A stretch of 64,000 bases of DNA. Source: Xanthomonas hortorum (GTDB lineage Bacteria > Pseudomonadota > Gammaproteobacteria > Xanthomonadales > Xanthomonadaceae). The translations under genes and the position numbers were made by a program. The stretch covers positions 3,855,001 to 3,919,000 of the forward strand of contig NZ_CP101417.1 in assembly GCF_024339125.1 (NCBI RefSeq), in the 5' to 3' direction. The notes below the pieces were generated by a model. That model was not told where the DNA came from. It did no database searches and worked only from the letters and a program-made list of their open reading frames with translations. Shown here one piece after another: positions 10,548-35,079 of this stretch (position 1 is the stretch's first letter; the number at the start of each line of letters is the position of its first letter).

Positions 10548-13500
10548 CTAATCCGGCAACCACGCCTCACGCCACCGATCAAGATTGCTGCCGGTCAACA
10601 TCCAGTCGCGGCGCACCACTTCACGCAACGCCGCGCCCGTTGCTGCCGCAGCGGCCGGGTCGGCCAGGTGCTCCCGGATCGCACCGATCCAGTCGCGATA
10701 GCGGTTCTTCACCAGCGTCACCGGCAGATTGCCTTGGTAGCAGCGCACGTCGCTGGCGATCACCGGGTAGCCGCAGGCACCGTATTCGAGCAGGCGCAGG
10801 TTGCTCTTGCACTCGTTGAACAGGTTCTGCTCCACCGGTGCCAGTGCCAGATCCAGGTCCAGCGCGGCCAGCGCGGCGGGATAGTGATCGATCGGCACGC
10901 CAGGCTGAAAGTGATGAATGTGCTGGCGCAGCGCGAACGGGTACATGCCCATGAACACCCAGTCGACCTCGTCGGCCAGCTCGCGCACTACATCTGCGAT
11001 CAGTTCCAGGTCGCCTGTGTGGCTGGCGCCGCCGGCCCAGCCGATGCGTGGGCGACGTCCGCGTTCGAGCGAACGCTCCGGCAATACGTTCCACCAATGT
11101 GCCGGCAGGCGGTTTTCGGCCACGCGGATGTCGCTGTGCAGTCCGGCGAATGCCTCGGCCAGCGCCGGTGTGGAGACCACGAAGCGGTCCACCATGCCCA
11201 GCCCGCGCCGCACGGTCTTGAGGATGTCCTTGGGCATGTGCTCGCGATGGGCATTCTTCAGCGGCAGGTTGGGCAGGTAGTCGTCCAGCTCGTAGACCTT
11301 GAATGCGCGCGATAGCGCCTTCATCCGCCGCATAGCTTCCAGTCGCGGCTCGCCGACCTGGCGTTGCAGGATCACCACGTCGGGATCCTGGCGCGCCAGC
11401 TCGCTGATCTCCAGATAGCCGTTGAACAGCACGCCCTCGACCATGCCGGCTTCGCGCAAGGCGCGCAGCGGCTGGATCACCCGATAGTGGCCGCAGCCTT
11501 CGATATCGGCCGGCAGCGCGATCACGCTCGGCAGCGGCCGCCACGACTGTAACGGCCGCCAGCTGGCGCGCGGATCGGCCAGTTTGAAGCCGGCGCCGGG
11601 ATCCAGCGAAAAACCCGGGTTGTAAGCCGGGTCGTTAGCCATCACCGGCAGCCAACGTGCGTACATCGCCTCTTCGTCGAGAGCGGTGGCGGGCGCTGTT
11701 TCGGGCGGGTCGATCAACAACTGCGCGCGTGCGGCATACACATTCAGATAGCCGGCCTGCTGCAGGCGCAGGCACAGATCGACATCGCTCCACTGCGCCA
11801 ACGCCGGCTCCTGCGCAAAGCCGCCAGCGTCCAGAAACAGCTGGCGCGGCAGCATCAGGCATTCGCCACTGAGTGCGCTGTAGTTCTGATCGAGTTGCAG
11901 CCGCTGCAGGTAGCCCGATTCGTCGAACGCGGCGCCTTCGAATGCGCGCGTTGCCGGTGCGCCCAGGCCCAGCAGCAAGCCGGCGTGATGCACGGTACCG
12001 TCGCCGCGCAGCAACTTGCCGGCTACTGCGCCGACCTCGGGACGCAGCGCATGGTTGAGCAACTGCGCCAGCCAATCGGCCTTGATCGCTGCCGCGCCCG
12101 CTGCCAGCCACAGCAGCAGGTCCCCACGTGCCTGCTCGGCTGCAGCATTGCAGGCCGCCTCGCGCGAGGGTTCACCTTCAAAGCGCAGCACGCGGATCTG
12201 CTGCAGGCCTAGGTTTTCGATGCTCGCCAGCCAGTCGCGTAGCTCCGGCTCGGCGCTGTCGCCGCGATCCAGCAACAGCAACTCATAATGCGGATAGGTG
12301 GTATTGGCGAGCAGGCTTTCCAGGCAACGCTGCACCTGCGCGAGGCGTCCATCCACCAACACCAGAATGCTGACCAAGGGCTGCGGCGCATGCTGGTAAT
12401 CCACAACATGGCGGCCGGGGCCGTTGCTGCTCACTACCGCGTCCACATAGCCGCGCGCGGCGAGATGGCGCGTGATGGCGCGTTGTTCGTCCTCGTCGCT
12501 GTGCCGGGAGGTGTTGGCCGATGCAACCAGCAAGGGTTCGGCGATGTGCTGGATGCAGGCCAGGCCGTGGCGCTCGACCAGGCCAAATTGGTAATCGAGC
12601 TCGAATGCGTCGCTCGTTTCGGTTGGGAAGCCGCCATCGGCCAGCAACGTGCGGTGCCGGAACAGCCAATGCCGCGACATCGTCGATGGCGCGCTCAACA
12701 GCATGTCCAGATACAGCGCCGGCCGCATCGCCAGTCCCAGCTGACCGTCGTCCAGCGCGACCACTTCGTCGGCGTAGACAGCCTGGCAATCGTCCGGCAG
12801 CGCGAGCATCTCCAGCGCCAGCATCAACAGGCCGCTGGCAGTGAAGAGGCTGCCGGCTTCGACCAGTAATACCCAGTCGATAGAGTCCTGCGTAGCGATG
12901 GTTTGGTTGAGTGTCGCTGCCAGGCCGTGGTGGCCAACCAGCACGCCGCGCTCGCCGTGGTCGGCGACCTGCTGAGGCGAGTTGCTGAAAACCCAGGTCT
13001 GCTGATTCCGATAACACGCCACCGCCGCCAGACTGGCCTGAGTTGCGGCCACCGCTGCCGCATCGCCATTGCTGTCGACCAACATCACTGCGATCCGCGG
13101 GCCGCCTGCATGCGCCTGCAAGCGCGCCTCGATCAGTGAGCGCTGGACGTTGCTGGGATGGCGCACGCCCAACCAGGTGGAGGGCGACACACGCTCGGCC
13201 ATGCCGGCGCTTTGCATCAGCGCATTGACCAGATCCACCGACTTGAACACCCGCGCCTTGTGCGGGCTGAGCGGCGCGACGCGCACCTGGCGGTTGTCGC
13301 CGTTTTCGCGTCGCCAGCCGAGCTCGCGGATGCCTTGGCGCAAGTCTTCATGGCCCTGATCGCCGATGCCGGGTTGATCGCGGCCGGCCTGACTGAACTG
13401 CGCGCTTGACACGCGAAAATGCGTGAGCGTGCTGGACAGCAGGGCAAGGTTGCCGTGACGCAGCAGCTTGACGTAGATCGCCAGATCGCCAACCCAATGG

Positions 13501-14081
13501 ATGGCCTTGCCGTTCAACATCATCAGCTCACCACCCAGCGCCACCAGGTCGGCGCGCCGTGCAAGCACGCAACTCGGCTCGCCGATGAAGTTAATGGCGT
13601 GGTCGGCCAGGAACGACACCAGCTCTGGCCCGTCGATCAGCACATCCTCGGCAAACGGAAAATGGGTTGCCAGAATGTCCGGCAGCGGCGCACCGTCATC
13701 GTCGATGCGCAACCGGCGCGAGGACGCCAGCGCCGTGCCGGGGTTACGCTCCATTGCGCCGACCAGCTGCGCGACGCAGTCCGGCTGCAGCACGTCGTCG
13801 TCGTGCAGGAACTTGACGTATTCGCCCTGCGCCAGGCCGATGCCCTTGACGGTACTGGCGAGTTCACCGAGGCGGGTGGCATTGCGGTGGTAGCGGATCG
13901 GAAATGGGGCGTCAGCCAGCCTCGACGCCGACACGGCCTCAATGGCGCCATCGGCGTTGTCGTCGCAGATCACCAGCTCCAGCGCCGTGTAGGTCTGCGC
14001 CAGCACGCCGTCCAGCGCCTGCGCGAAATAGCGCGGCTTGTAGGTCGGCATGACGATGCTGACGAGGGGAGTGGAAGCCAT
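10548..14081 (-). CDS. Large multi-domain glycosyltransferase (candidate flagellin glycosyltransferase)
   Basis: The 1177-residue product contains three glycosyltransferase-like parts. Residues about 1-240 are a GT-A family 2 domain (PLVSIVMPTYKPRYFAQ, ELVICDDNADG, EYVKFLHDDDV). A second family-2-like domain lies around 570-800 (PLVSILVLVDGRLAQVQRCL, LLRGDGTVHHAGLLLGLGAP), but its DxD region is weak. The last 300 residues resemble a GT-B fold (GCGHYRVIQPLRALREAG, RPRIGWAGGASHTGDLELI, LLEYGACGYPVIASDV). I chose the ATG at 14081 (MASTPLVS) because GGTGA precedes it; an upstream ATG would add 26 residues. Position in the flagellar cluster suggests it adds a glycan to flagellin, which is inference. 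No sigma54 or FliA promoter was visible upstream. Confidence 0.8.
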   Translation of the reverse strand: MASTPLVSIVMPTYKPRYFAQALDGVLAQTYTALELVICDDNADGAIEAVSASRLADAPFPIRYHRNATRLGELASTVKGIGLAQGEYVKFLHDDDVLQPDCVAQLVGAMERNPGTALASSRRLRIDDDGAPLPDILATHFPFAEDVLIDGPELVSFLADHAINFIGEPSCVLARRADLVALGGELMMLNGKAIHWVGDLAIYVKLLRHGNLALLSSTLTHFRVSSAQFSQAGRDQPGIGDQGHEDLRQGIRELGWRRENGDNRQVRVAPLSPHKARVFKSVDLVNALMQSAGMAERVSPSTWLGVRHPSNVQRSLIEARLQAHAGGPRIAVMLVDSNGDAAAVAATQASLAAVACYRNQQTWVFSNSPQQVADHGERGVLVGHHGLAATLNQTIATQDSIDWVLLVEAGSLFTASGLLMLALEMLALPDDCQAVYADEVVALDDGQLGLAMRPALYLDMLLSAPSTMSRHWLFRHRTLLADGGFPTETSDAFELDYQFGLVERHGLACIQHIAEPLLVASANTSRHSDEDEQRAITRHLAARGYVDAVVSSNGPGRHVVDYQHAPQPLVSILVLVDGRLAQVQRCLESLLANTTYPHYELLLLDRGDSAEPELRDWLASIENLGLQQIRVLRFEGEPSREAACNAAAEQARGDLLLWLAAGAAAIKADWLAQLLNHALRPEVGAVAGKLLRGDGTVHHAGLLLGLGAPATRAFEGAAFDESGYLQRLQLDQNYSALSGECLMLPRQLFLDAGGFAQEPALAQWSDVDLCLRLQQAGYLNVYAARAQLLIDPPETAPATALDEEAMYARWLPVMANDPAYNPGFSLDPGAGFKLADPRASWRPLQSWRPLPSVIALPADIEGCGHYRVIQPLRALREAGMVEGVLFNGYLEISELARQDPDVVILQRQVGEPRLEAMRRMKALSRAFKVYELDDYLPNLPLKNAHREHMPKDILKTVRRGLGMVDRFVVSTPALAEAFAGLHSDIRVAENRLPAHWWNVLPERSLERGRRPRIGWAGGASHTGDLELIADVVRELADEVDWVFMGMYPFALRQHIHHFQPGVPIDHYPAALAALDLDLALAPVEQNLFNECKSNLRLLEYGACGYPVIASDVRCYQGNLPVTLVKNRYRDWIGAIREHLADPAAAAATGAALREVVRRDWMLTGSNLDRWREAWLPD

Positions 14082-14443
14082 GCAGAGTTCACCGTGTTCA
14101 AAGTTGGTGGGTGCCTGAGCAACAGACGAGACCGATTTGGCTTCAGATGCAAAATGCATGCCTCGCGCGGCTCCCGGTGAAGGTCATTCCCGCAGGAACA
14201 ACCGTTTCATGTGCGGATGCGTTCGGTGGACTAAGAATGTCGCGACGGCGCATTGTCGGTCTTAGGGTATCCGGTCTATATCGATGCAACATTATGCGGC
14301 CGCCTCTGTCAGCATTACCTAGCGAGTAAGCTCTGCCGATGATATGGGGTATCTCATACACCCTGAAGCCTCTTAGTCTGAAGAACTCCTGTTTGGGCCT
14401 TGTCGCACGTTGCGCAGCCTGTAAAGTCACGCATGGATAAATT

Positions 14444-14472
14444 TTGACGTTAAAGTGAGCTTTGTGTTAAAT
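14444..14472 (+). promoter_or_regulatory. Candidate sigma70 promoter for the AT-rich FkbM methyltransferase gene
   Basis: TTGACG and TTAAAT are separated by 17 bases, and the methyltransferase ATG follows 32 bases after the -10 box. It sits in the AT-rich stretch 14430-14504, where such boxes arise easily by chance. The rest of the 14082-14443 gap between the divergent genes holds nothing I can name. Confidence 0.4.
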
Positions 14473-14504
14473 TCATTGTTAAAATCAGCTGAGTCTCAAA
14501 TCCC

Positions 14505-15815
14505 ATGTATCCATTTTTTTCTCACCAGCAGCTCGTTAGAGAAATTTTTGAATTGCGGGATTCGCTCGCGAGGCCAAATGGACTTTTTCCTAGTTGGTTC
14601 GATAAAAATCCAAAAGATTTTCTCGAGAATCAAAAGTTTATTGTATGCGGATCGGGATGTAGGTCTGAAATTCGCGTTTTGGCTAGGTGTGCCAACGTCG
14701 TTGCGATTGTCGACGACTTTTTGCATGAACGTCAGGAGCAAATATTTGGGATACCTATCATCAGCTCTGATGCCTGGGTGGGGTTAGCTGCGGGTCGGTC
14801 GGATGTCGTTTCTTGCATCCTGACACCAGGCGCGACGGGCTTTCAGCACTTCACCAAAATCGCTGATCAATGGGGCTTGCATACACTTCTTCCTCTGCAA
14901 TTTCTGCAACTACTCGAATCCTGCAATGTTGACCGTAATGGTGAAGGTGGCAGATTATTTTGGTATGGCTACGAATTCTTCAGCGCTGCCATCAACGACC
15001 TTGATCGTCTTGTAAGCGTTTCCGATCAACTGGTTGATGAATACTCGCGCTCGACATGGCTATGCATATTGCTTTATCGATTGACCTTAAACCCATTTTA
15101 TCTCGAAGCGTGCGCGGTAGGTTATGGCGGGAATGACTTTAGCCTAAATTCCTACTCCACTAATCGTCAATTTTTGAGCTTCAGTGATCAAGAGGTATAT
15201 GTGGATGGCGGCGCTTTTAACGGAGATACCATAGAGGGTTTCTTGCGCGCATGTAAAGGTAATTTTAAGCGAATCCATTCTTTTGAACCATCCGTTAGCA
15301 ATAATCAATTAATTCGGACGCGCCTTAATTTTTTGCAGGATCAATACCTCAAGCCTTTAGCCTCTTCTGTCGTTCTGCATGAAAAAGGTTTATGGGATAG
15401 CAATGCAACCCTCAGGTTTAATCCAGGGCAAATTAGTCCTGGCTTCGAAGCTTCTGTACCTATTCATCCACAAACCGCTCACTTATTGGATTCCAATATT
15501 CTTGGGCATATATATGAAAAATCACTTGAAGATGATGTGTCGGTAACCGTGCCCGTTACGACCATTGACGATGCTACCGAAAGAACGGCAACATTTATCA
15601 AATTGGAAATAGAGGGTTCCGAACTCAAGGCGCTGCATGGTGCGCGAGAAACAATTGAGAAGAATCGGCCAAAAATGGCTATTTCTCTTTATCACAAGCC
15701 TGAAGATTTGTTGACATTGACGGATTTTGTTAACGAAACGGATAAGGGTTATACGCTCGGCTTCCGCCAGCACAATCGTCTATGTCCTGATGCAATGGTC
15801 TTATATTGTTTTTAG
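14505..15815 (+). CDS. FkbM-family SAM-dependent methyltransferase, AT-rich gene
   Basis: FkbM-type enzymes O-methylate sugars and other small molecules. The 436-residue product has an N-terminal Rossmann-like segment (KFIVCGSGCRSEIRVLARC, then VVAIVDD and FGIPIISSDAW at about residues 44-91), and a C-terminal methyltransferase domain with the SAM loop VYVDGGAFNGDT, the acidic partner HSFEPS and the FkbM signature FIKLEIEGSELKALHGA. The C-terminal end (RPKMAISLYHKPEDLL) is paralogous to the minus-strand FkbM gene at 17164-18687. The gene is visibly richer in A and T than its neighbours and is the only plus-strand gene in the glycan region besides the transposase, both signs of acquisition by transfer. 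The start is ATG with a weak ribosome binding site. Confidence 0.85.
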   Translation: MYPFFSHQQLVREIFELRDSLARPNGLFPSWFDKNPKDFLENQKFIVCGSGCRSEIRVLARCANVVAIVDDFLHERQEQIFGIPIISSDAWVGLAAGRSDVVSCILTPGATGFQHFTKIADQWGLHTLLPLQFLQLLESCNVDRNGEGGRLFWYGYEFFSAAINDLDRLVSVSDQLVDEYSRSTWLCILLYRLTLNPFYLEACAVGYGGNDFSLNSYSTNRQFLSFSDQEVYVDGGAFNGDTIEGFLRACKGNFKRIHSFEPSVSNNQLIRTRLNFLQDQYLKPLASSVVLHEKGLWDSNATLRFNPGQISPGFEASVPIHPQTAHLLDSNILGHIYEKSLEDDVSVTVPVTTIDDATERTATFIKLEIEGSELKALHGARETIEKNRPKMAISLYHKPEDLLTLTDFVNETDKGYTLGFRQHNRLCPDAMVLYCF

Positions 15816-15818
15816 GGA

Positions 15819-15842
15819 AAGTCTGGACAATCTGCCAGACTT
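15819..15842 (+). terminator. Hairpin after the FkbM gene, possible terminator
   Basis: Perfect eight-base stem AAGTCTGG/CCAGACTT with an eight-base loop, starting four bases after the stop codon and followed by CTCAATTT. The T tract is short, so termination would be moderate. The next 150 bases to the insertion sequence hold no gene I can support. Confidence 0.5.
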
Positions 15843-15998
15843 CTCAATTTCAGTCTGGGGGGAGGGGGCGTCATGACGGTACTATGCTTTTCAGGGAGTC
15901 CGATGTTTTCGGAGGTTTAGGAAAGGCCTAGTTGAAAAGAACATTTTTTTGCGGGCGTCAGTCATCGCTCTATCTTTCCAAGTCGTGAATTTCCCTAG

Positions 15999-17157
15999 GG
16001 AACCTCTGAACAACGCACCACAGATACGCGACACTACCCGCCTGATGTTGAGGAGTGATCCATGCAACTGACGTTCGGTGACGCTGAGGGCCTGGGCAAG
16101 CGCAAGCAGACCCGGCGCGAGATCTTTCTGGCCGAGATGGAGCAGGTGGTTCCGTGGCAGCAACTGCTCGGTCTGATCGCGCCGCACTATCCGGTATCGG
16201 GCCGGCCAGGTCGGCAGCCGTACGCACTGGCGACGATGTTGCGGATTCATCTGCTGCAGCAGTGGTATGCGCTGAGCGATCCGGCGATGGAAGAAGCACT
16301 GCACGAGATCCCGACCTTGCGGCGGTTTGCCCAGCTCGGTGGCTTGGACAACGTTCCGGACGAGACCACGATTCTCAACTTTCGGCGCCTGCTGGAGACC
16401 CATGGCCTTGCCGCGCGGATGCTGGAAGCGGTCAACGCGCATCTGGCGCGCAAGGGCCAGAGCCTGCGGTCGGGCACGATCGTCGATGCGACGCTGATCG
16501 CGGCGCCCAGTTCGACCAAGAATGCCGACAACGCGCGCGACCCTGAGATGCATCAGACCAAGAAGGGCAATCAGTGGTATTTCGGGATGAAGGCGCACAT
16601 CGGCGTGGATGAATTTTCCGGGTTGGTGCACCACGTCCATTGCACAGCCGCCAACGTCGCCGATGTCACGGTGATGCACACGTTGCTGCATGGCAAAGAA
16701 GACAGCGTGTTCGGCGATAGCGGCTACACCGGTGCGGACAAACGCGAAGAACTGCAGGCCTGCAAGGCTGCATTCTTCATCGCCGCCAGGCCCTCGACGA
16801 TGCAAGCCCTCGGCAACAAACGCGAGCGTGCTCGGGAAAGACGTTGGGAACACTTCAAGGCCAGCGTGCGCGCGAAGGTGGAGCATCCATTCCGGGTGAT
16901 CAAGCGCCAGTTCGGCTACACCAAGGTCCGCTATCGCGGCCTGGCCAAGAACACCGCGCAGGTGCTGACCTTGTTTGCGCTATCGAACCTGTGGATGAAG
17001 CGAAAGCAGTTACTGCCGACGATGGGGAACGTGCGCCTGTAACCCGGGCAACACCCTGCAAACGCGCCGGAAACGGCAAAAAAATCGAGGATCTGAGCGC
17101 CGTCAGCCTGGTCGATGTGGTTAGGCTCATCCTCCGATGCCGTTGATCAGACCATCC
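15999..17157 (+). mobile_element. IS5-family insertion sequence (IS5 group), copy 1
   Basis: The 1159-base element has imperfect terminal inverted repeats (GGAACCTCTGAACAACG left, GGATGGTCTGATCAACG as the complement of the right end). It is flanked by the four-base duplication CTAG at 15995-15998 and 17158-17161, matching the YTAR target of the IS5 group. It carries one transposase gene. A second copy of the same length, in opposite orientation, lies at 33826-34984. Its right end lies a few bases from the stop codon of the FkbM gene at 17164. Confidence 0.95.
16062..17042 (+). CDS. IS5-family DDE transposase, copy 1
   Basis: The 326-residue protein catalyses transposition of the surrounding element. 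It has the IS5-type N-terminal domain (PWQQLLGLIAPHYPVSGRPG, LRIHLLQQWYALSDPAMEEA) and a DDE catalytic domain: first Asp in TIVDATLIAAPSSTKN, second Asp in FGDSGYTGADKRE, and a C-terminal region with RARERRWEHFKASVRAKVEH and FRVIKRQFGYTKVRYRGLAKN. The frame is full length without frameshift, so the element may still be active. The translation is identical to that of copy 2. Confidence 0.96.
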   Translation: MQLTFGDAEGLGKRKQTRREIFLAEMEQVVPWQQLLGLIAPHYPVSGRPGRQPYALATMLRIHLLQQWYALSDPAMEEALHEIPTLRRFAQLGGLDNVPDETTILNFRRLLETHGLAARMLEAVNAHLARKGQSLRSGTIVDATLIAAPSSTKNADNARDPEMHQTKKGNQWYFGMKAHIGVDEFSGLVHHVHCTAANVADVTVMHTLLHGKEDSVFGDSGYTGADKREELQACKAAFFIAARPSTMQALGNKRERARERRWEHFKASVRAKVEHPFRVIKRQFGYTKVRYRGLAKNTAQVLTLFALSNLWMKRKQLLPTMGNVRL

Positions 17158-17163
17158 CTAGGC

Positions 17164-18687
17164 TTACTCCGCCCAGGGCGGCGGTGCGGCACCGGCGACG
17201 GGCGATGCATACAAAACGAGGTCGTAGTAGTGGGCGGGAGAGTGCTGGCGTAGACGGAAGTGATAGCCATCCACCAGTTTGTCCAGTTGCCCCACGATAT
17301 CCAGTAGATCCTGGGCGTAGTGGTACACGCAAATAGCCATACGGGGGCGCTGGGTACGGATGAGGCGAGATGCGCCTTCTAGTGCCCTGGCTTCGAACCC
17401 TTCGATATCCAACTTCAGTAGCGTCAGTTTTTCCAACTCGTCGTCCAGGCGCGTAGTAGTCACGGAGATTCCGCCATCCGGCGATACATGGCTGGAAACG
17501 GTGCCGGTCTCCTCGAAGCGTAGCGTCGCCTGTTCGTTGGAGATGGCTTTTTTTATGGCCTTGAAATTGTGCGGGGGAAGGGGGAAGGCGCTGGCGATGC
17601 CCTCCAGTTTCTGGAAGTTGATGCGATCGGGTTCAAAGGCGGTGATGCTTTCGTAGCGATAGCGGGATGCTTCCAGAAACTTGTGGACGATGGGGCCCTG
17701 GAAGGCACCGCCATCGCAGAAATGTTCACGCTGACCCAGCTGGAAAGTACTGCTATCGGCGAATTCTGAAAAGTACTCGTTGATCGGCGTAGCCCAGCAG
17801 TCCAATAGGAGGCTGGAATCGTAGGTCAGGCGGAACAACAGGTTGCTGTAGAGCGTAAAAACGCTGAAATCGTCGTCCAGCCGATCCGCAAAACTCAGAA
17901 ATTCGTCCAGGCGCGTAAGCGTCCGCTGACGGTATACCTGGGCAGGCTCATATACGGCGAGAAGCCCACAGTGAGCAACGGCCAGGCAGGCATCTACCCT
18001 TTCAATGCCTGCTTGTTCGCAGAGCTTGCGTGCCAGGCCGGATTCTCCGGGGCTGTAGGAAAAATCGATGGCCAATGCCTGGGAATACTGGGCCGCCTGT
18101 TCGATGAACTGGCGCGAACTCCAGCGCGGCACCCCATGAACGGTGTCGCTGTCGCTTGGCTGGTCATCAATGGCGGCGATTACATGGCTGGAGTGCTGGA
18201 CGATCTTTGAGCCATAAATGTTGCCAATGCCCGAGCGCGGATGGAGCAGAAAGAGGGGGCGCTGCTCAAAGTGTGGGATCAGCGGATCCACGGAAGGCGC
18301 AATGCTCAGTTGCTCGATGCCCGCGCTGGCACAGAGGTCGTTTGCAAACGCCCGACCGCGCGGGCTGCAAGAGAAATCGATAGCGATCGCATCGGCGTAC
18401 TGCCCTGCCTTGGCAAGGAACTCCTGACTATTCCAGCGCGGCGCGCCGTGAATGCGGTCCAGGTGGATGCTTTGATCATCAATTGCGGCAACAACATGGC
18501 GCAGGTTGGCAACGACCCCGGGCCCATGCACCATGCCTGCATAGGACTCGGGAGCGACGAGGAATACAGGACGGTTGGCAATCGCGGGCAAGCGCGCAAT
18601 AACATCCTCGAGTGCAGGGCGCTCCTGCTCCGCAATACGGAGAATCCGCTGGCGAAGCTGCTCATTTCTTGCGTTCATGAACGTCAT
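17164..18687 (-). CDS. FkbM-family methyltransferase with duplicated N-terminal domain
   Basis: The 507-residue product ends in an FkbM-type SAM-dependent methyltransferase domain (HFCDGGAFQGPIVHKFLEAS, TAFEPDRINFQKLEG, LTLLKLDIEGFEARALEGAS). The N-terminal half contains two tandem copies of a ~104-residue Rossmann-like module, at about 39-140 and 143-245. Each has a R-P-V/L-F-L start, an H-V-V/I-A-A-I-D-D-Q motif, an H-G-x-P-R-W motif and an A-I-D-F-S motif. Last gene of the nine-gene glycan operon; its ATG overlaps the preceding stop (ATGA), although an ATG nine bases later has better ribosome-binding-site spacing. Likely an O-methyltransferase acting on the sugar; substrate unknown. IS copy 1 lies directly after its stop. 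Confidence 0.82.
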   Translation of the reverse strand: MTFMNARNEQLRQRILRIAEQERPALEDVIARLPAIANRPVFLVAPESYAGMVHGPGVVANLRHVVAAIDDQSIHLDRIHGAPRWNSQEFLAKAGQYADAIAIDFSCSPRGRAFANDLCASAGIEQLSIAPSVDPLIPHFEQRPLFLLHPRSGIGNIYGSKIVQHSSHVIAAIDDQPSDSDTVHGVPRWSSRQFIEQAAQYSQALAIDFSYSPGESGLARKLCEQAGIERVDACLAVAHCGLLAVYEPAQVYRQRTLTRLDEFLSFADRLDDDFSVFTLYSNLLFRLTYDSSLLLDCWATPINEYFSEFADSSTFQLGQREHFCDGGAFQGPIVHKFLEASRYRYESITAFEPDRINFQKLEGIASAFPLPPHNFKAIKKAISNEQATLRFEETGTVSSHVSPDGGISVTTTRLDDELEKLTLLKLDIEGFEARALEGASRLIRTQRPRMAICVYHYAQDLLDIVGQLDKLVDGYHFRLRQHSPAHYYDLVLYASPVAGAAPPPWAE

Positions 18688-19307
18688 CTCTCGTAGGTAT
18701 GAATGGGGGTGTCGTAGCGGGCGTCGAAATAGGTCTTGGCAGGCACGTCCTCGCGGTAGGCGCGCGGCCAACCCAGTTCGCAGCTTCGTCCCACCTTGAC
18801 GCCCCAACTCACGATGGCGCCGGTGCGCAGGATGCTATTGCCGCCGATCTCGACGCCCGCGCCGATTTGCACACCATTCTCTATCCAGCATGACGATTTG
18901 ACGCGGCATGCCGGTCCCAGGTGCGCGCCGGCATGGATGACGGTGTTGTAGTCGATCCTGCACCCGTGCCCGACGACAGCATTGGCACCCACGAATGCGT
19001 TGAGCCCGATGACCGTGTCAGAGGCGATGGCTGCGCTGGAGTGGATGAAGGGCTCCAGCTTGAAGCCACGTTCCATCGCTGCCTGCATCAGTTCTAGGCG
19101 CTTGAAGTTGCCGAAGCGTTCGTCGATCGCCACGAACATGGCCCCATCGGTCGGATTCAGTCCATCCAGCACGCCCAGATCGAATTCGTGTTCCGCGTCT
19201 TGTGGCACATCGATCCTGATGACCGCCTCGTCCTGACGCGCCTGCTTCCAGGCGTGAAAGGCCAGGTCGAGGTATGCGCTGCCGCCGATGATCCACCTAG
19301 ATTTCAT
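18684..19307 (-). CDS. PglD/NeuD-like hexapeptide-repeat acyltransferase (second copy in operon)
   Basis: The 207-residue product has a short N-terminal nucleotide-sugar-binding-like region starting WIIGGSAYLD and a left-handed beta-helix of hexapeptide repeats (about residues 90-190: IASDTVIGLNAFVGANAVVG, GAHLGPACRV, VQIGAGVEIGGNSILRTGAI). The family transfers acetyl or longer acyl groups from CoA or ACP to amino sugars. Its start overlaps the Rieske oxygenase stop by 11 bases. It differs clearly from the other acyltransferase in the operon (20446-21096), so the two probably act on different positions or with different acyl donors. Confidence 0.8.
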   Translation of the reverse strand: MKSRWIIGGSAYLDLAFHAWKQARQDEAVIRIDVPQDAEHEFDLGVLDGLNPTDGAMFVAIDERFGNFKRLELMQAAMERGFKLEPFIHSSAAIASDTVIGLNAFVGANAVVGHGCRIDYNTVIHAGAHLGPACRVKSSCWIENGVQIGAGVEIGGNSILRTGAIVSWGVKVGRSCELGWPRAYREDVPAKTYFDARYDTPIHTYER

Positions 19308-20442
19308 GTTCGGTCTCCATCAGCAGCGTGTACCAGCGTTCGACCAGGCGATTCATGGATTCGTAGGCACCCTGGGTGGGTAGCGGAGCATCCGTGTGTA
19401 ATGCCGCCTGCACCCGCTCCATGATGTCCACGTCTTCGCCCACCACCACCTTGCTGCCGTGCATCTGTGCCAGTAGCACTTGGCTGGAAGAACCGTAAGG
19501 CTGTTTCCTGCGTGCGCTAAACCAATAGATTTCCAAATCGGTCGTGTCCGGCGCAACGGGGACATGGTGTTCCAGGGTAAAAGAATAGCCGCCATTGGAA
19601 CTGGCGATATGCATGTTCGGGAAAGCCAACCAGTTGAAGTAGGCATCCTGCTTGCCCCAGCGTTCCACTTTATCGTGCCAGCCGAAGTGCTTAAGGTTGG
19701 GTATGGGTGCGTCCGGGCCGCCGAAACTGAAGCGGCGCATCTCGCGCCTCAAGGCAGCGGGCGAGCTGTCTTGCAAAGCTTCCATGGACTCCTTGGCTTG
19801 TTCTTCGTTTACCGCAGCAAAGAAGCTGACACTCTTGGCCAGAGTCTTAGGGTGGACGAAGCGCGGGTGATTGGCATCCCGGAGATTTTCGTAAGCGAGT
19901 TTCCAGTTGTACCGGCCACGCCATGTGGTCACCATGACCTCGGTGTCGTAGGCGTTGGAACTACTTTCCAGCAAGGCGATGAAGTCTGCCGAAAACTGCT
20001 CCTCGATGGGCATCGGGTTGGGGTCGAGGTTGACGAACAGCAGGTTGCCGATGGCGCGCAGTGAGAATTCGCGCAGCTTCAGGTTGTCCCTTTCACTAGT
20101 GTCCAGGCGATAGATCGCATCGCAGTCCGGGATGTTCTTTACCCGGCCTTGTTCGTCGTAACTCCAGGCGTGGTAGGGGCACACCAAAGGCCGGCAACCG
20201 ATAGCACCGGTTTGAATCAGTGCACTGCGGTGAAGGCAGACGTTCTCGAACGCACGGATTTGGCCGTGGAAGTTCTGGATCACCAGGGGAATGCCTGCGA
20301 TCTTGCGGGTGATGAAGCAGTTGTTTTCCCGCAGCAGTGTCTTGAGCCCTGCAAACAACCAAACCCGACGGAAGATCTTGCGCTGCTCGCGCTCAAAGAT
20401 TTCCTGCGACAGGTAATATTTGGGGTGCATCCGGGAACGCAT
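19297..20442 (-). CDS. Rieske non-heme iron oxygenase, alpha-subunit-like
   Basis: The 381-residue product has an N-terminal Rieske [2Fe-2S] domain with the paired ligands C-x-H (VCLHRSAL) and C-x2-H (VCPYHAWSYD) at about residues 68-92. Its catalytic domain has the mononuclear-iron motif in YENLRDANHPRFVH, supplying the bridging Asp and two His. Such enzymes hydroxylate, demethylate or desaturate substrates using electrons from a reductase, which is not encoded nearby. It sits mid-operon between two acyltransferase genes (three-base gap upstream, 11-base overlap downstream), so a role in modifying the glycan or its acyl group is likely but inferred. I do not know this enzyme from described flagellin glycan pathways. 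Confidence 0.88.
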   Translation of the reverse strand: MRSRMHPKYYLSQEIFEREQRKIFRRVWLFAGLKTLLRENNCFITRKIAGIPLVIQNFHGQIRAFENVCLHRSALIQTGAIGCRPLVCPYHAWSYDEQGRVKNIPDCDAIYRLDTSERDNLKLREFSLRAIGNLLFVNLDPNPMPIEEQFSADFIALLESSSNAYDTEVMVTTWRGRYNWKLAYENLRDANHPRFVHPKTLAKSVSFFAAVNEEQAKESMEALQDSSPAALRREMRRFSFGGPDAPIPNLKHFGWHDKVERWGKQDAYFNWLAFPNMHIASSNGGYSFTLEHHVPVAPDTTDLEIYWFSARRKQPYGSSSQVLLAQMHGSKVVVGEDVDIMERVQAALHTDAPLPTQGAYESMNRLVERWYTLLMETEHEI

Positions 20443-20445
20443 CGA

Positions 20446-21096
20446 TCAGTCTGCTGGGTTGTTTTTGTGGAAAACAATTTTGGCCGGATTGCCGAACACA
20501 GTGGCGCCGGCCGGTACGTCCTTCATGACCACCGCACCGGCTCCGATGACCGCGCCGTCACCGACCTTGATGCCTGGCATCAGGGTAGCGCGTGGGTGCA
20601 CGGTGACGAAGTCGCCGATCTGCACGCCACCGCCCATGAACGTCATTGCGCCAACGTGCACGTAGTCACCGATGCGTACATCGTGCCCGAGCATGCTTTG
20701 GGCATGGATGGTGACAAAGTCGCCCATGCGCACGTCCGGCCCGGAATGGACCAGCAAACCAAAGAAGCAGCCCTGGCCGAAATGCACCCGCCTGCCCAGG
20801 CGGACGTCGGTGCAGATTGGAATGAACCGCCCGCCCTTTTCGAGGATCGGCAGAGCATAGCGGTGGCGGTCGTAGGGATTTCCCATCGCACAGACGAATA
20901 CATCGTCAGGCTGGGGCAGATAGCTCATCGGATCGCCGATGATCGGTGTATCGACCCCGTAGCGATCTAGGATATCGGCGCGGCTGTCCAGGAACCCGCC
21001 GATCAGCCAGTCCTTGCCATGCCCGGCATCGTTACGCATTTGCTCCAGGACTTCGCGGCCCCAGCCGCCGGCGCCGATAATGAGTGCGCGTTCCAT
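20446..21096 (-). CDS. PglD/NeuD-like sugar O/N-acyltransferase (first copy in operon)
   Basis: The 216-residue product begins with a Rossmann-like sugar-binding domain (ALIIGAGGWGREVLEQM, VFVCAMGNPYDRHRY) and continues with a left-handed beta-helix (LGRRVHFGQGCFFGLLVHSG, VTIHAQSMLGHDVRIGDYVH) ending with the typical GNPAKIVFHK tail. The family N-acylates UDP- or dTDP-4-amino-sugars, which fits the VioA-type aminotransferase at the operon head. Its start overlaps the preceding SDR stop (TGATG). The acyl donor could be the ACP-bound product of the KAS III/SDR genes; this is inference. Confidence 0.85.
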   Translation of the reverse strand: MERALIIGAGGWGREVLEQMRNDAGHGKDWLIGGFLDSRADILDRYGVDTPIIGDPMSYLPQPDDVFVCAMGNPYDRHRYALPILEKGGRFIPICTDVRLGRRVHFGQGCFFGLLVHSGPDVRMGDFVTIHAQSMLGHDVRIGDYVHVGAMTFMGGGVQIGDFVTVHPRATLMPGIKVGDGAVIGAGAVVMKDVPAGATVFGNPAKIVFHKNNPAD

Positions 21097-21848
21097 CAGA
21101 GCACCGCCCCGCCGTCCATGACCAGGCTGGTGCCGGTGACCCAGCGGCTGGCGTCGGACAGCAGGTAGACCGCAGCGTTGGCGACATCTTGCGGTGTGCC
21201 TAGACCCAGTGGATGGCGCGCGCGTTGTTGGTTCAGCAGTTCATTGAGCCCGTTGTCCTCGCCCCAAAGGCGCGGAGTGGGCACGGCCGATGGCGAAATC
21301 CCGTTGACTCTCACGCGGTGCTTCGCCTGTTCCAAAGCTAAGCACCGGATAATGCCCAGCAGGGCGGACTTCATTGCCGAGTACGGCCCCACGCCGCGTG
21401 TACCAATATGCGCGGAGGTGGACAGCATGAACACGATAGAGCCTTGCGGGTTAATGGCATTGGCTTGCAGCAGACGCTGCGTCAGCATGACCGGTGCCAG
21501 GAAATGAACCTGGTACATGCGCGTCATCAGTTCTTCCTTCAGTTGGCGGATCGGCGACAGCATCTGCCCGCCGAAGCAGTGCACGACGCCGTCGATGCGC
21601 TGGCTGGCTTGCACCAGGCGCTCCCGGTCCTGCGAAACAGTCAGGTCGGCCTGCACCTGCACATGCCCGTCGCCGGCCAGTTGCGCATGGGTTTGCTGGA
21701 GACGCTCGGGATCGCGACCGCTGATGACCAAGCGTGCGCCACGCCGTGCGCAGGTCAGCGCGATTTCCTGGCCAAGGCCGGACGATGCGCCGGTGACCAG
21801 GATGGTCTTGCCAGTTAGGGAAAAGGCTTTGCGAGTCGGATTGCTCAT
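21096..21848 (-). CDS. Short-chain dehydrogenase/reductase (FabG-like), SDR 1
   Basis: The 250-residue classical SDR has the NADP-binding motif TGASSGLGQE at about residues 19-28 and the catalytic Tyr-x3-Lys as YSAMK preceded by the conserved Ser in MLSTSAHIG. The C-terminal SDR end LLSDASRWVTGTSLVMDGG is intact. Its nearest relative in the window is SDR 2 upstream, with which it overlaps by four bases; the two probably arose by tandem duplication. In an ACP/KAS III context one of them likely reduces a 3-oxoacyl-ACP to the 3-hydroxy form. Confidence 0.85.
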   Translation of the reverse strand: MSNPTRKAFSLTGKTILVTGASSGLGQEIALTCARRGARLVISGRDPERLQQTHAQLAGDGHVQVQADLTVSQDRERLVQASQRIDGVVHCFGGQMLSPIRQLKEELMTRMYQVHFLAPVMLTQRLLQANAINPQGSIVFMLSTSAHIGTRGVGPYSAMKSALLGIIRCLALEQAKHRVRVNGISPSAVPTPRLWGEDNGLNELLNQQRARHPLGLGTPQDVANAAVYLLSDASRWVTGTSLVMDGGAVL

Positions 21849-22618
21849 GCGTAGATGTCCATCGGCACGGTCAGGCCACCATCTACGACGAAGTAGTTGC
21901 GGGTGACCCAGCGACTTGCGTCGGACAGATAAAACACCGCCGCATAAGCCACGTCTTCCGGTTCGCCCAGTCCCAGCGGGGTCAGTTTGGCGTGCTCATC
22001 GATGTTGCCGCCGCTCTTGTTGAGGCCTTCAAGCATTGGCGTGCGCACGTAGCCGGGCACGATGCAGTTGGCGCGGATACCGTGCTTGGCCACTTCCAGT
22101 GCCAGAGTGCGCATTGCGCCGAGCAGGGCTGACTTGCTGGCGGAGTAGGCGGCAGTGGCCACAGGACCGATGTGCGAGCCCACCGCCGAGATGAATAGGA
22201 TCGAGCCGTTGGCGTTGATGCGCTTTTTCGCCAGCAGACCGCGCGTCAGTAGCAGCGGTGCATAGACATTACTGGCGAAGGTTTCGTCCAGTTGCGCGCG
22301 GTTGATCATCCGGAATGGTGCTAGCCGGGCGATGCCGGCCGCGTGTGCGACGCCATCCAGGGCACCGACCAAAGCCACCAGATGGTCGATGTCTTCCTGC
22401 TTGTCCAGATTGGCGATTACCTGCTCATGCCCGGTGCCTTCAAGTGTGGCGAAGGTCTCGGCCAGGCGGCCTTCGTCGCGGCCGCTGATGACCAGTTGTG
22501 CGCCGATCTGCGCGCAGCTCAACGCGATCTGTCGTCCGATGCCTGACGACGCGCCGGTGACCAGGATACGTTTGCCCTGCAACGAGAACGGGTCGTTCGG
22601 ATCGATGCCTGCACTCAC
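21845..22618 (-). CDS. Short-chain dehydrogenase/reductase (FabG-like), SDR 2
   Basis: The 257-residue product shows TGASSGIGRQ at about residues 20-29, the catalytic motif YSASK with the partner Ser in LFISAVGSHIG, and the end YLSDASRWVTRNYFVVDGG. Closely similar to SDR 1 throughout. It overlaps the KAS III gene by four bases. A keto-reduction on an ACP-bound short acyl chain is the most economical role; oxidation or epimerisation of the sugar is the alternative. Confidence 0.85.
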   Translation of the reverse strand: MSAGIDPNDPFSLQGKRILVTGASSGIGRQIALSCAQIGAQLVISGRDEGRLAETFATLEGTGHEQVIANLDKQEDIDHLVALVGALDGVAHAAGIARLAPFRMINRAQLDETFASNVYAPLLLTRGLLAKKRINANGSILFISAVGSHIGPVATAAYSASKSALLGAMRTLALEVAKHGIRANCIVPGYVRTPMLEGLNKSGGNIDEHAKLTPLGLGEPEDVAYAAVFYLSDASRWVTRNYFVVDGGLTVPMDIYA

Positions 22619-23655
22619 GACTCGATCAACTCCGGAAACACCGCGCCTTCGATATCAATCAGGCAGGTACCCCACGACAAGCCGATCCCGAAGCCTGAAA
22701 GCAGCACACGCTTGGGGCCAGATTCCAGTTCTTTGTTGATCCTTGCGGTCATGGTGAGGGGCAACGATGCGCCGCTCGTGTTGCCGAAGTCGCGCAGGGT
22801 GGATGGCACCTTTTCGACCGGAAGGCCGAGCTTCTTGCGAATGGTCTCGTTGATCATCTTGTTGGCTTGATGAAAGACGAAGTAGTCGATGTCGTCTTTG
22901 CTGACGCCGGCATACGCGATCAATTTTTCAACTGCAGGCGGCACCCGCTGAGTCGAAAAGCTGAGCACGGCGGTGCCATCGAGCTGCAGATCGGTAGCCT
23001 GGTGCCAGCGATCCTTCTCGTTTTCACGATAAGGCAGCAGGTGCTGAATGGCGACAGGCTCGCGTTGACCACCCACCGGCAAGATGATGGCTTTATAGCC
23101 GCTCCCATCGCTGTTGAGGTCGAAATACATCGGTGCTGCGTTCTGGTCGAACTCTAGCGCCGTGGCGGTGCCAGAGTCGGAGAAGATCGGGTCTTCCAGA
23201 TTGGCACTGCGGTCACCCACTAGCAGCAGGCCTTTCTTGACGCCGCCGGCGGCGATCATCGAGCCGAGCAGGTTGATGCCGAACGGGTAGGCCGAGCAGC
23301 CCAGATTGACGTCGAAAGCCACCGTGGCATGCGACAGGCCCAGCCGGTCTTGCAGGATGATGGCAGTGGCCGGGATCGGGTAATCCGGCGATTGGGTCAC
23401 CACGATCAGTGCATCGATCTCCTCACGCTTCCACTGCAGCGTTTCCAGCAGCACCTGCGTCGCATCGAAGGCTAGGTCCGAAAAGCACTGCCAGGGCTGG
23501 GCCATGCGGCGCGTCTCGATACCGATGTTGCGCACCAGGCGCTCGCGCTCGGAACGGATCTGCGGCCGGCAGTCGGTGAGGTTGGACACGACCCGCTTCG
23601 GCACGCAAGTCGCCATGCCGGCAAAGCGAACGTTGTGCAGCGTGGAGGTCGGCAT
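22615..23655 (-). CDS. 3-oxoacyl-ACP synthase III-like protein (KAS III)
   Basis: KAS III enzymes condense acetyl-CoA with malonyl-ACP to acetoacetyl-ACP. The 346-residue product has the thiolase-fold triad: Cys in VNLGCSAYPFGINL, His in FVFHQANKMINE and Asn in LRDFGNTSGASLPL. The ATG at 23655 (MPTSTLHNVRF) is chosen over an earlier in-frame start because the latter would overlap the acyl carrier protein gene; GAGG precedes the chosen ATG. With the adjacent ACP and two reductases it could build a 3-hydroxybutyryl group, which matches the acyl group known on P. syringae modified viosamine. Confidence 0.88.
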   Translation of the reverse strand: MPTSTLHNVRFAGMATCVPKRVVSNLTDCRPQIRSERERLVRNIGIETRRMAQPWQCFSDLAFDATQVLLETLQWKREEIDALIVVTQSPDYPIPATAIILQDRLGLSHATVAFDVNLGCSAYPFGINLLGSMIAAGGVKKGLLLVGDRSANLEDPIFSDSGTATALEFDQNAAPMYFDLNSDGSGYKAIILPVGGQREPVAIQHLLPYRENEKDRWHQATDLQLDGTAVLSFSTQRVPPAVEKLIAYAGVSKDDIDYFVFHQANKMINETIRKKLGLPVEKVPSTLRDFGNTSGASLPLTMTARINKELESGPKRVLLSGFGIGLSWGTCLIDIEGAVFPELIES

Positions 23656-23660
23656 GGTGC

Positions 23661-23885
23661 TTACGCCTCGGTCAGTTTGTAGAGATCGCCGACAGTGATG
23701 GCCGTGGTCAGGTCTTCGCCGGTGATGGTCTTGCCGTATTCCATATCGAACATCACGATCACGCCCAGCGCGGCCAGCGAATCCCATTCCGGCAATTCCA
23801 GCAGCACGGTGTCCAGCGTGACCTCCACCGGTTCCTGGAAGTCGGTGGCGGAGATGAAGTTCTCGATAAACGTTGCCTGAGTCAT
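23661..23885 (-). CDS. Dedicated acyl carrier protein
   Basis: The 74-residue acidic protein has the phosphopantetheine attachment motif as EWDSLAALGVI, with Ser at about residue 36 replacing the usual DSL context by WDSL, common in specialised ACPs. It lies directly upstream of the KAS III gene and would carry the acyl chain for glycan decoration rather than for bulk fatty acid synthesis. A 64-base gap separates it from the aminotransferase gene, the only sizeable gap in the operon. Confidence 0.85.
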   Translation of the reverse strand: MTQATFIENFISATDFQEPVEVTLDTVLLELPEWDSLAALGVIVMFDMEYGKTITGEDLTTAITVGDLYKLTEA

Positions 23886-23949
23886 GCGATCTCGCCTGGT
23901 TGCCTGTTGAAGAAATGGGAGTCTGAAATGCAGGTGCAGCGTGTTGCGG

Positions 23950-25059
23950 TCATGTTGCCTGTTGGCCGGCGATCAGATCGGCAATGGTATCGACCTGGTC
24001 GCGGGTCAAGCCAGGAAAGATCGGCAGGCACAACACCTGCGCCGCCACCGAGCGCGCCACCGGCAGCCATGCCGGTGCCGACGAGGGCAGGGCGCGATAC
24101 ATCGGGAAATCGCTGATCAACGGATAGAAGTAACGCCGTACCAGGATGCCGTGCTCGCGCATCAATTGGTAGAGCGCATCGCGCGCCAGCGGGTAGTCGT
24201 CCTGCACCAGAATCGGAAAGTACGCGTAGTTGGCAGTGGCGTGATCGGGCCGCGCAACGCAGCGGATGCCGCGAATATCGCTCAATCGCTGCCGATACTG
24301 CGCGTCGATGTCGCTGCGCTGCGCGATGGCGTGATCGATGTGCTTGAGTTGCAACAAGCCGAACGCCGCGCTGATCTCATTCATCTTGCCGTTGATGCCC
24401 GGCGCGACCACCGTGGTTTCGTCGACGAAGCCGAAGTTCTTCAGATGCCCGATACGTTGATAGGTTTTTTCGTCCGGGCAGATAATCGCGCCGCCTTCGA
24501 AGGTGTTGAACACCTTGGTGGCATGAAAGCTCAACACGCTCAGGTCGCCATGGCGCAGGATCGAGCCACCGCCATCGCGCACACCGAAGGCATGCGCCGC
24601 GTCGTAGATCACCTTGAGGTTGTAGATATCGGCGATGCGCGTGATGGCGGCGGTGTCGCAGGTCGTGCCGTAACAATGCACGGGCATGATGGCGGTGGTC
24701 TGCGGCGTGATGGCCGCTTCGATCTTGGACGGATCCATGTTGAGCGTCACCGGGTCGATGTCCACAAACACCGGGGTGATGCTTTTCCACAGCAGCGAGT
24801 GCGCGGTGGCCACGAACGAGTAGGGCGTGGTGATCACTTCACCGGTGATGCGCAGCGCCTGCAACGCGGTGATCAGCGCAGTGGTGCCGTTGGTCAGCAA
24901 GGCAAGATGCGGCACGCCCAGGTACTCGCACAGTGCGCGCTCGAGTGCCCGATGCATTTCGCCACCGTTGCTGAGGATGCGGCTGGTCCAGATCTGCTCC
25001 AGATAGGGCAGAAATTCTTCCAGCGGCGGCAGCAGCGGACTGGTGACGGGTATGGTCAT
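23950..25059 (-). CDS. vioA: VioA-type PLP-dependent sugar aminotransferase
   Basis: VioA converts dTDP-4-keto-6-deoxyglucose to dTDP-viosamine (4-amino-4,6-dideoxyglucose). The 369-residue product is a DegT/DnrJ/EryC1-family protein: TNGTTALITALQALRITGEV and TTPYSFVATAHSLLW near the N-terminus are characteristic of VioA, YDAAHAFGV provides the PLP-ring Asp/His, and SFHATKVFNTFEGG contains the PLP Lys. I chose the ATG at 25059 (MTIPVTSP); a GTG 27 bases upstream is possible. First gene of the operon, behind a sigma54 promoter. The exact sugar product (4-amino rather than 3-amino) is from family resemblance. Confidence 0.85.
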   Translation of the reverse strand: MTIPVTSPLLPPLEEFLPYLEQIWTSRILSNGGEMHRALERALCEYLGVPHLALLTNGTTALITALQALRITGEVITTPYSFVATAHSLLWKSITPVFVDIDPVTLNMDPSKIEAAITPQTTAIMPVHCYGTTCDTAAITRIADIYNLKVIYDAAHAFGVRDGGGSILRHGDLSVLSFHATKVFNTFEGGAIICPDEKTYQRIGHLKNFGFVDETTVVAPGINGKMNEISAAFGLLQLKHIDHAIAQRSDIDAQYRQRLSDIRGIRCVARPDHATANYAYFPILVQDDYPLARDALYQLMREHGILVRRYFYPLISDFPMYRALPSSAPAWLPVARSVAAQVLCLPIFPGLTRDQVDTIADLIAGQQAT

Positions 25060-25141: not shown

Positions 25142-25156
25142 GCAAGCGCTGTGCCA
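25142..25156 (-). promoter_or_regulatory. Sigma54 promoter of the vioA glycan operon
   Basis: Minus-strand TGGCACAGCGCTTGC matches the RpoN consensus at every key position (GG and GC ten bases apart). It lies between the fleQ stop and vioA and places the glycan operon under the same control as the flagellar operons. Confidence 0.82.
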
Positions 25157-25180: not shown

Positions 25181-26657
<1,477 letters not shown>

Positions 26658-26665
<8 letters not shown>

Positions 26666-33721: not shown

Positions 33722-33825
33722 GCGAAATCCAGTATTTTTTTACTGTTTTCTGCATCGGGACAAAATACGGAAACGTTGTGTAGCAAGGGGTTTGGTTTAT
33801 TCGGCAGCACCCCGCAGATCTTTAG

Positions 33826-34984: not shown

Positions 34985-35079
34985 TTAGCGCTGGTATAAC
35001 TTTCTACAAATAAACTCCGTCCGCCTGGCGCACTGCTCACGCGCAGGAGCGAAGAAGACCCTGGTTTTCTACTGCAAAA

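Follow-up and report, generated by a model that had tools for sequence, protein, structure and literature searches.

What do an oxygenase, a second reductase and a second acyltransferase-like protein do in an operon whose remaining genes are those expected for an N-acylated amino sugar? The question is raised by a 64,000-nucleotide stretch of the 5.44-Mb genome of Xanthomonas hortorum (contig NZ_CP101417.1, positions 3,855,001 to 3,919,000; hereafter the window, whose first letter is position 1 of all coordinates below). An original prediction had read nine genes at 17164–25059 on the minus strand as an acyl-viosamine pathway for flagellin decoration with more steps than the known one, and all nine were found open. 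Our analysis indicates that the locus is probably a xanthomonad flagellin-glycosylation island with an extension that oxidizes the sugar cap; the extension consists of a second short-chain dehydrogenase/reductase (SDR2), a Rieske oxygenase (RO) and a degenerate left-handed beta-helix (LbH) protein, LbH2. The new part of the island is the RO-LbH2 pair, together with its class-matched duplication and its link to GT41 glycosyltransferases.

Gene content of the operon

All nine genes lie on the minus strand. The first is a DegT-family sugar aminotransferase of the VioA/DesI-like kind (23950..25059; PF01041, 4e-99), predicted to be a dTDP-4-keto-6-deoxyglucose 4-aminotransferase. It is followed by a dedicated acyl carrier protein (ACP; 23661..23885), a ketoacyl-ACP synthase III (KAS III; 22615..23655; PF08541/PF08545), the core VioR-like reductase SDR1 (21845..22618; PF13561, 7e-48), SDR2 (21096..21848), which is 50% identical to SDR1, and NeuD1, a VioB/PglD-type sugar N-acyltransferase (20446..21096). 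The last three genes encode RO, a non-haem iron oxygenase of class A (19297..20442; PF00355 and PF00848), its partner LbH2 (18684..19307), and an FkbM-type methyltransferase whose N-terminal domain is duplicated (17164..18687; PF05050, 4e-10, and TIGR01444). The gene families named in the original prediction all fit these domain matches (DegT, KAS III, two each of SDRs and hexapeptide proteins, a Rieske domain joined to a ring-hydroxylating C-terminal one, and FkbM), the match of the ACP being weak.

With lengths of 346, 507 and 369 amino acids assumed for KAS, FkbM and the aminotransferase, five of the eight junctions overlapped (by 4, 4, 1, 11 and 4 nt), the 11-nt overlap being that of RO and LbH2. 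The other three junctions had gaps of 3 and 5 nt and of 64 nt between the aminotransferase and ACP genes, so that the earlier description of the genes as nearly all overlapping was right for most junctions and slightly strong as worded. The gene-order search in other xanthomonads that had been proposed as a check found the nine-gene order in many relatives, which argues that the order is not due to chance.

Core pathway

The best NCBIfam match of the aminotransferase was DesI (276.5 bits, below the DesI/VioA equivalog cut-off of 650), the best PDB match was 2po3 (5e-64), and the pyridoxal phosphate lysine was present in 49 of 50 rows. On its sequence the protein is called VioA-like and no more. 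The ACP gave no Pfam match at 0.001 and a weak NCBIfam match to AcpM (1e-4), and the Ser of the DSL motif was kept in all 41 length-filtered rows of its family. The Cys-His-Asn residues of KAS III were present in 45/45 rows (best PDB match 4efi, 2e-58), and the Tyr and Lys of the SDRs in 96/96. NeuD1 scored 158.4 bits against the NeuD family of NCBIfam, slightly under the cut-off of 160.8. Its best PDB match was VioB (7txp, 2e-22), and a His lined up where these enzymes normally have one; the general-base column held His in 52 of 65 rows and Tyr in 13, and the GNPA motif was found in all 65. An rmlB gene was detected in the same genome (512.8 bits, cut-off 365.1), which would meet the need for dTDP-4-keto-6-deoxyglucose.

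The viosamine-type core set (aminotransferase, ACP, KAS III, SDR and VioB-type acyltransferase) is thus present by family and residues, the P. syringae proteins themselves standing outside the comparison. Because of the DesI- and 2po3-like aminotransferase, the VioB-like NeuD1, the kept residues and rmlB, the best guess for the product is an N-acylated viosamine, as had been predicted, or possibly an isomer.

The RO-LbH2 pair

In the RO survey, 395 genomes of the family were searched, 68 of them had a match at 1e-20 and 40 regions were taken. Named genomes were also scanned, giving 77 loci, of which L076–L120 were used and L121–L152 left out. Models were built from length-filtered rows, and a set of 90 distinct ROs was defined as domains covering at least 60% of the model; duplicate proteins were excluded, as were shorter domains such as the fragments of RO in L118, L096 and L088. 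The Rieske Cys2His2 ligands and the two iron-binding His were present in 77/77 length-filtered rows and the bridging Asp in 74/77, with Glu in the other three. No reductase, ferredoxin or beta-subunit gene was found among the nine genes of the operon; such a partner would have its gene elsewhere, where it was not searched for.

LbH2 followed RO directly in 83 of the 90 cases, overlapping it by 11 nt in 49 and by 4 nt in 23. Distances between ROs correlated with those between their LbH2 partners (r = 0.94 over 83 pairs). At the 54 loci with a single pair, r was 0.95 for RO-LbH2, 0.59 for RO-NeuD1, 0.61 for RO-SDR1 and 0.25 for RO-KAS, and LbH2 gave 0.58 with NeuD1 and 0.27 with KAS; all r values are inflated by deep classes and shared descent, an inflation that the controls share only in part and that counts against a strong reading of them. 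Where a locus had two pairs (ten loci), an RO or LbH2 fitted its own partner better than the other one in 19 of 20 comparisons. No RO-LbH2 fusion was found among the mapped segments. A fusion of the two SDR genes, suggested by open reading frames (ORFs) of 479 amino acids, was rejected after stop-to-stop domain mapping gave separate genes.

In the RO tree, classes A and B formed a clade of 52 rows with support of 100/100, and the window RO fell in A; the class border of 43% identity to the window RO was chosen after the data had been seen. The pair occurred over several families, also in tandem, and in the nine clear tandems the first RO lay outside A+B and the second inside. The pairing of RO with LbH2 was not found in the open-licence literature searched by titles and the starts of abstracts.

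Acyl transfer by LbH2

LbH2 scored 79 bits against TIGR03570 (NeuD), below the cut-off of 160.8. Among 84 LbH2 sequences, which include a few that are not downstream of an intact RO (the second copies of L041 and L088, and L089), the general-base column held His in 14; Pro (19) and Ala (18) led, and the window protein has Pro. GNPA was not conserved, the four commonest residues of its G and N columns including neither G nor N, and no His column exceeded 39/84. Other positions were kept: N67, R70 and G173 were invariant, N103 was present in 82/84 and C176 in 79/84. The nearest PDB chain was PerB, aligned at the position where PerB has a His, presumably the catalytic one, and a variant chain has Ala.

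LbH2 could nevertheless be a true second acyltransferase, acylating a hydroxyl made or a group freed by RO, with the acceptor or a cofactor supplying the base. PerB and LpxD, its closest relatives, are acyltransferases; the His that 14 LbH2 proteins keep is missing from 13 of 65 NeuD1; and QdtC, a related enzyme, reportedly needs no base of this kind. The loss of His is therefore no proof by itself of lost acyl transfer, and our initial statement that LbH2 is dead because its His is gone was softened. Because NeuD1 can have Tyr in the His column, acyl transfer by LbH2 is less likely but conceivable. The scattered His columns, the lost GNPA motif and the divergence of LbH2 with RO rather than with NeuD1 or KAS make a true acyltransferase rather doubtful. 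LbH2 is probably an oxygenase partner and not a standard acyltransferase: the second acyltransferase of the original prediction is borne out in its LbH family, while its usual catalytic features have degenerated and its behaviour is that of a partner to RO.

The second reductase and the classes of RO

SDR2 followed the classes of RO. Among 75 cassettes with distinct KAS (L166 was left out, its KAS being equal to that of L116), two SDRs accompanied a class A or B RO in 48 of 49, class C alone in 13 of 21, and were present in none of the five lacking the pair. The exception among the 49 was L160, which has weak fragments beside its one SDR. These counts suggest that SDR2 belongs with the extension and SDR1 with the core. 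That a second SDR is always present was ruled out, class-C cassettes having one or two.

The tracking of class A/B RO by SDR2 would also fit an extension that acts on acyl-ACP before transfer. RO would then hydroxylate 3-hydroxybutyryl-ACP, or SDR2 would reduce a second keto group, LbH2 would bind the acyl-ACP, and the difference would lie in the acyl chain delivered. LbH2 also matched LpxD and LpxA, which use acyl-ACP donors. However, KAS was the protein with which RO and LbH2 co-varied least (0.25 and 0.27), and no ACP or KAS lay in the DNA taken around orphan RO-LbH2 pairs. We consider action on acyl-ACP unlikely.

The orphan pairs, of class B, were found in genus g7 away from the flagellar cluster (L056–L062), between purT and an SPFH-domain gene in both loci examined by Pfam (L058 and L060). 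The orphan pair was intact in 12 of 13 genomes with a class-C RO and in one of five with a class-A RO (Fisher 0.008, kinship ignored); it was broken in G214. In the DNA taken, the flagellar position was seen for all five class-A and for 5 of 13 class-C genomes and the orphan position for eight, the rest being assigned by class alone. This pattern fits classes A and B doing the same step. A strict A/B rule is contradicted by the seven class-C-only genomes of the window's genus, which lack a B pair.

Distribution of the cassette

In the window's genus, KAS and RO coincided: of 35 genomes, the same 31 had both. Among 369 sampled genomes of the class, the window's own was the only one with an RO at 1e-60. 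A KAS search at 1e-90 found the gene in 9 of 53 genomes of the genus of G938; across the phylum, 4 of 398 had it. L161 carried the minimal core only. L157, L162, L163 and L164 were core cassettes with a distant Rieske protein (186–197 bits) and no LbH2 beside it.

Four genomes of the window's genus had no cassette, and flagellin was present in all 35. Three of the four were examined, at L153, L154 and L155. In L155, fleQ adjoined the glycosyltransferase gene, no aminotransferase scraps were seen and flagellin was kept; in L154, aminotransferase scraps were all that was left, with the glycosyltransferase and flagellin kept. L153 had an alternative island between fleQ and the glycosyltransferase gene (4585–8754), with another aminotransferase, an ATP-grasp protein and two methyltransferases. 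In L156 (G360), fliC lay about 1.3 kb before a shortened KAS gene, and fleQ, rpoN and the aminotransferase and ACP genes were not found between them; the gap reflects either a true deletion or an error of assembly. At L045:10891–13722 and L039:10395–11765, additional genes preceded that of the glycosyltransferase: either those of an unknown 424-amino-acid protein, a cytidylyltransferase and an FkbM protein together, or a pyruvyltransferase-like gene.

Flagellar setting and promoter

The operon lies inside the flagellar cluster. FleQ, the sigma-54 activator of flagellar genes (25181..26665, minus strand; PF00158 and PF06490), is encoded immediately upstream, and an exact match to the sigma-54 promoter consensus, TGGCACAGCGCTTGC (25142..25156, minus strand), stands between the fleQ stop and the aminotransferase start. 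FliC flagellin, the presumed acceptor, is encoded at 32400..33587 on the minus strand (Flagellin_N and Flagellin_C), and rpoN, fleQ and fliC are neighbours. A multi-domain glycosyltransferase of 1203 amino acids, VioT-like by size and place (10548..14159, minus strand), has two GT2 stretches and a C-terminal glycosyltransferase domain and is predicted to transfer sugar to the flagellin glycan. The original prediction did not state that this gene belongs with the nine; in relatives such as L036 and L037 it directly follows the FkbM gene. Together they make about ten glycosylation genes between fleQ and fliE, and fliE and fliF come after the glycosyltransferase.

Exact sigma-54 sites numbered two in the 64-kb window, with 0.40 expected, and 7 of 100 shuffles reached two. 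A site with no or one mismatch was found in 36 of 39 xanthomonad upstream regions, mostly with TGGCAT for TGGCAC. Counting exact matches, sites were present upstream of 7 of 63 aminotransferase genes and of 1 of 280 cassette-internal genes, taken as a control. The predicted flagellar role is supported by the flagellar position and this promoter.

Downstream of the operon, an insertion sequence (IS) with a DDE transposase (16062–17042) sits just after the FkbM gene (15995..17160, plus strand; 1166 bp). A second copy of 1166 bp at 33823–34988, 99.9% identical, lies upstream of fliC; either copy may affect expression. A search for inverted repeats at the IS ends gave nothing useful. A second FkbM gene is inverted (14505..15815, plus strand; PF05050, 5e-9) in a low-GC stretch (local GC 0.467 in 14001–16000). 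Similar inverted genes (73–82% identity) were seen at the same place in L050, L068 and L070, and the gene is possibly a later addition to the island. The N-terminal stretch of the operon's FkbM protein (17164–18687) is tandemly repeated, and a single copy of the repeat is covered when the other FkbM protein is aligned to it.

Target of the sugar

Outside the xanthomonads, 18 of 26 RO-found cassettes had a GT41 glycosyltransferase with tetratricopeptide repeats (TPR-GT41) in the taken region, three had a VioT-type enzyme and five neither. The 26 include L119, which has the core and no GT41; L109, L118 and L120, with no KAS in the taken DNA, were uncounted. In four Massilia loci (L097, L098, L102 and L110), GT41 and aminotransferase formed one protein of 1105–1111 amino acids, made of TPRs, GT41 and a DesI-like aminotransferase (confirmed for L097:14724–18041 with Pfam and NCBIfam). 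TPR-bearing GT41 enzymes are known for modifying proteins, and these neighbours and fusions point to protein glycosylation. In the genus of G938, flagellin was in the taken region of 9/9 KAS-found cassettes and GT41 in that of 8/9. In L085 and L104 the cassette and GT41 lie near a PilY1 gene, and the acceptor there is perhaps a pilus protein.

O-antigen clusters, too, often contain DegT, NeuD and FkbM genes, and the islands of some relatives carry pyruvyltransferase-like or cytidylyltransferase genes, as would be expected if the sugar went to lipopolysaccharide or another polysaccharide and the flagellar position were coincidental. We regard this as very improbable. Flagellar genes stand beside the xanthomonad core cassettes, with the sigma-54 promoter, and TPR-GT41 neighbours and fusions are found elsewhere; flagellin lies beside the cassettes of Comamonas, Acidovorax and one Pseudomonadaceae genome; and the gigX genes of Xanthomonas oryzae are reported, in the parts of the papers used here, to determine flagellin glycosylation (PMC8657755, PMC6859632).

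Evidence against an oxidizing extension

Several observations weigh against a flagellin island with a dedicated oxidizing extension. The aminotransferase fell under the cut-off of every NCBIfam equivalog listed, and the amino sugar could therefore be an isomer. Taken alone, a single exact sigma-54 site is weak evidence. The IS and the inverted FkbM gene separate the window's glycosyltransferase gene from the operon, and its co-transcription with the operon is therefore doubtful. Seven of the 90 ROs lacked an adjacent LbH2: L082, at a contig end, L089, with two ORFs between, and five secondary or distant ROs. L119 and L165 showed the order RO-RO-LbH2. Of 11 KAS-found regions, six had RO and LbH2 and five lacked the pair, and four of these five had an RO at a distance that lacked LbH2. 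Among KAS-found cassettes the pair is therefore optional, unlike in the window's genus.

This absence of the pair from 5/11 cassettes, like the 50% identity of SDR2 to SDR1, would be expected if the extra genes were accumulated paralogues adding no chemistry, with SDR2 a redundant copy and RO and LbH2 hitch-hikers. The RO metal ligands and the SDR Tyr and Lys are kept in the rows as described above, and the pair recurs over several families and in tandem, which leaves such accumulation scarcely credible. An extension that oxidizes the sugar cap is the reading followed below.

Proposed pathway

Judging from families and context, ACP, KAS III and SDR1 would make a 3-hydroxyacyl-ACP with a short chain, most likely the 3-hydroxybutyryl form. 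The aminotransferase would aminate dTDP-4-keto-6-deoxyglucose from the Rml pathway, NeuD1 would N-acylate the amine, FkbM would O-methylate, and the large glycosyltransferase would move the sugar onto flagellin. SDR2, RO and LbH2 would act as one unit that oxidizes the acyl group or the sugar. RO would be the catalyst, and LbH2 a pseudo-acyltransferase needed by RO, probably binding or presenting the nucleotide sugar. Each RO-LbH2 pair would add one modification, and single, tandem or distant pairs would give differently decorated caps. Transcription of the operon would start at a sigma-54/FleQ promoter of its own and go along with that of the flagellar genes.

Threefold symmetry matches between the Rieske oxygenase and LbH families. 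We tentatively suggest that RO and LbH2 may form a new kind of Rieske oxygenase, in which an oxygenase trimer is stacked on a trimer of the pseudo-acyltransferase. The latter would retain the fold that binds sugars but no longer transfer acyl groups, and would supply the nucleotide sugar. Such a complex might be a plug-in with class-specific partners, one pair per oxidation (single, in tandem or in trans), serving protein O-glycosylation through VioT-type and TPR-GT41 enzymes, including the GT41-aminotransferase fusion.

Plants and animals detect bacteria by their flagellin, the protein that bears these glycans. If the proposal is true, xanthomonads vary the flagellin cap by swapping two gene blocks, SDR-SDR-NeuD1 and RO-LbH2. 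A former acyltransferase would also have been turned into a partner of an oxygenase, and the open-licence literature searched gave no precedent for such a use of the LbH fold. The Burkholderiales cassette beside GT41 opens sugar and transferase to study with few proteins.

Comparison with known systems

In the open-licence literature, no paper combined 'Rieske' with 'glycosylation island', and among the titles searched there none was on the Xanthomonas flagellin glycan. Related islands are in print. According to the parts of the papers used here, gigX1–10 of X. oryzae pv. oryzae are ten genes under RpoN2/FleQ control that are reported, from matrix-assisted laser desorption/ionization time-of-flight analysis, to determine flagellin glycosylation (PMC8657755, PMC6859632). 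The nine genes of the window and the glycosyltransferase also make ten, and the window island is very probably the same island, as compared by description and not gene by gene; the difference is that the window's glycosyltransferase is split off by the IS and the inverted FkbM gene.

In X. euvesicatoria 85-10, XCV2013 to XCV2005 have the same gene order beside FleQ; for other strains, many of the entries are starred or absent (PMC3826837). In the portion of that paper used here, the order runs aminotransferase, ACP, KAS, SDR, SDR, acetyltransferase, Rieske protein and two hypothetical proteins, with a glycosyltransferase further on; by their place, the two hypothetical proteins would be LbH2 and FkbM. 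The X. euvesicatoria island (XCV2000–XCV2013) differs in the extra genes XCV2001–XCV2004, one of them named 3-deoxy-manno-octulosonate cytidylyltransferase, and that portion of the paper suggests no function for it (PMC3826837). Because this order is in print and gigX is reported to determine flagellin glycosylation, the flagellin role of the island is essentially known, and its place and purpose are not new.

The viosamine island of P. syringae pv. tabaci consists, in the part of the source used here, of vioA, vioM, vioT, vioS, vioB, vioR and acp; mutants of vioA, vioB, vioR and vioT have flagellin without modified viosamine, and the vioM mutant loses only the methyl group (PMC3927599). The two islands share the aminotransferase, ACP, KAS III, SDR, VioB-type acyltransferase, methyltransferase and large glycosyltransferase (1,173 amino acids in P. 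syringae). That island has seven genes, with no second SDR, Rieske oxygenase or LbH2 in the account used, and its methyltransferase has 241 amino acids (PMC3927599). Because of its extra genes, the window island is likely to make a product different from N-(3-hydroxybutanoyl)-2-O-methyl-viosamine. The nearest precedent for the proposed oxidation is CMP-Neu5Ac hydroxylase, a Rieske enzyme that oxidizes the N-acyl group on a nucleotide sugar; its sugar is another one, and it is not known to have an LbH partner. The prediction of more steps than the known pathway is supported, the operon carrying the viosamine genes of P. syringae by family and further ones besides.

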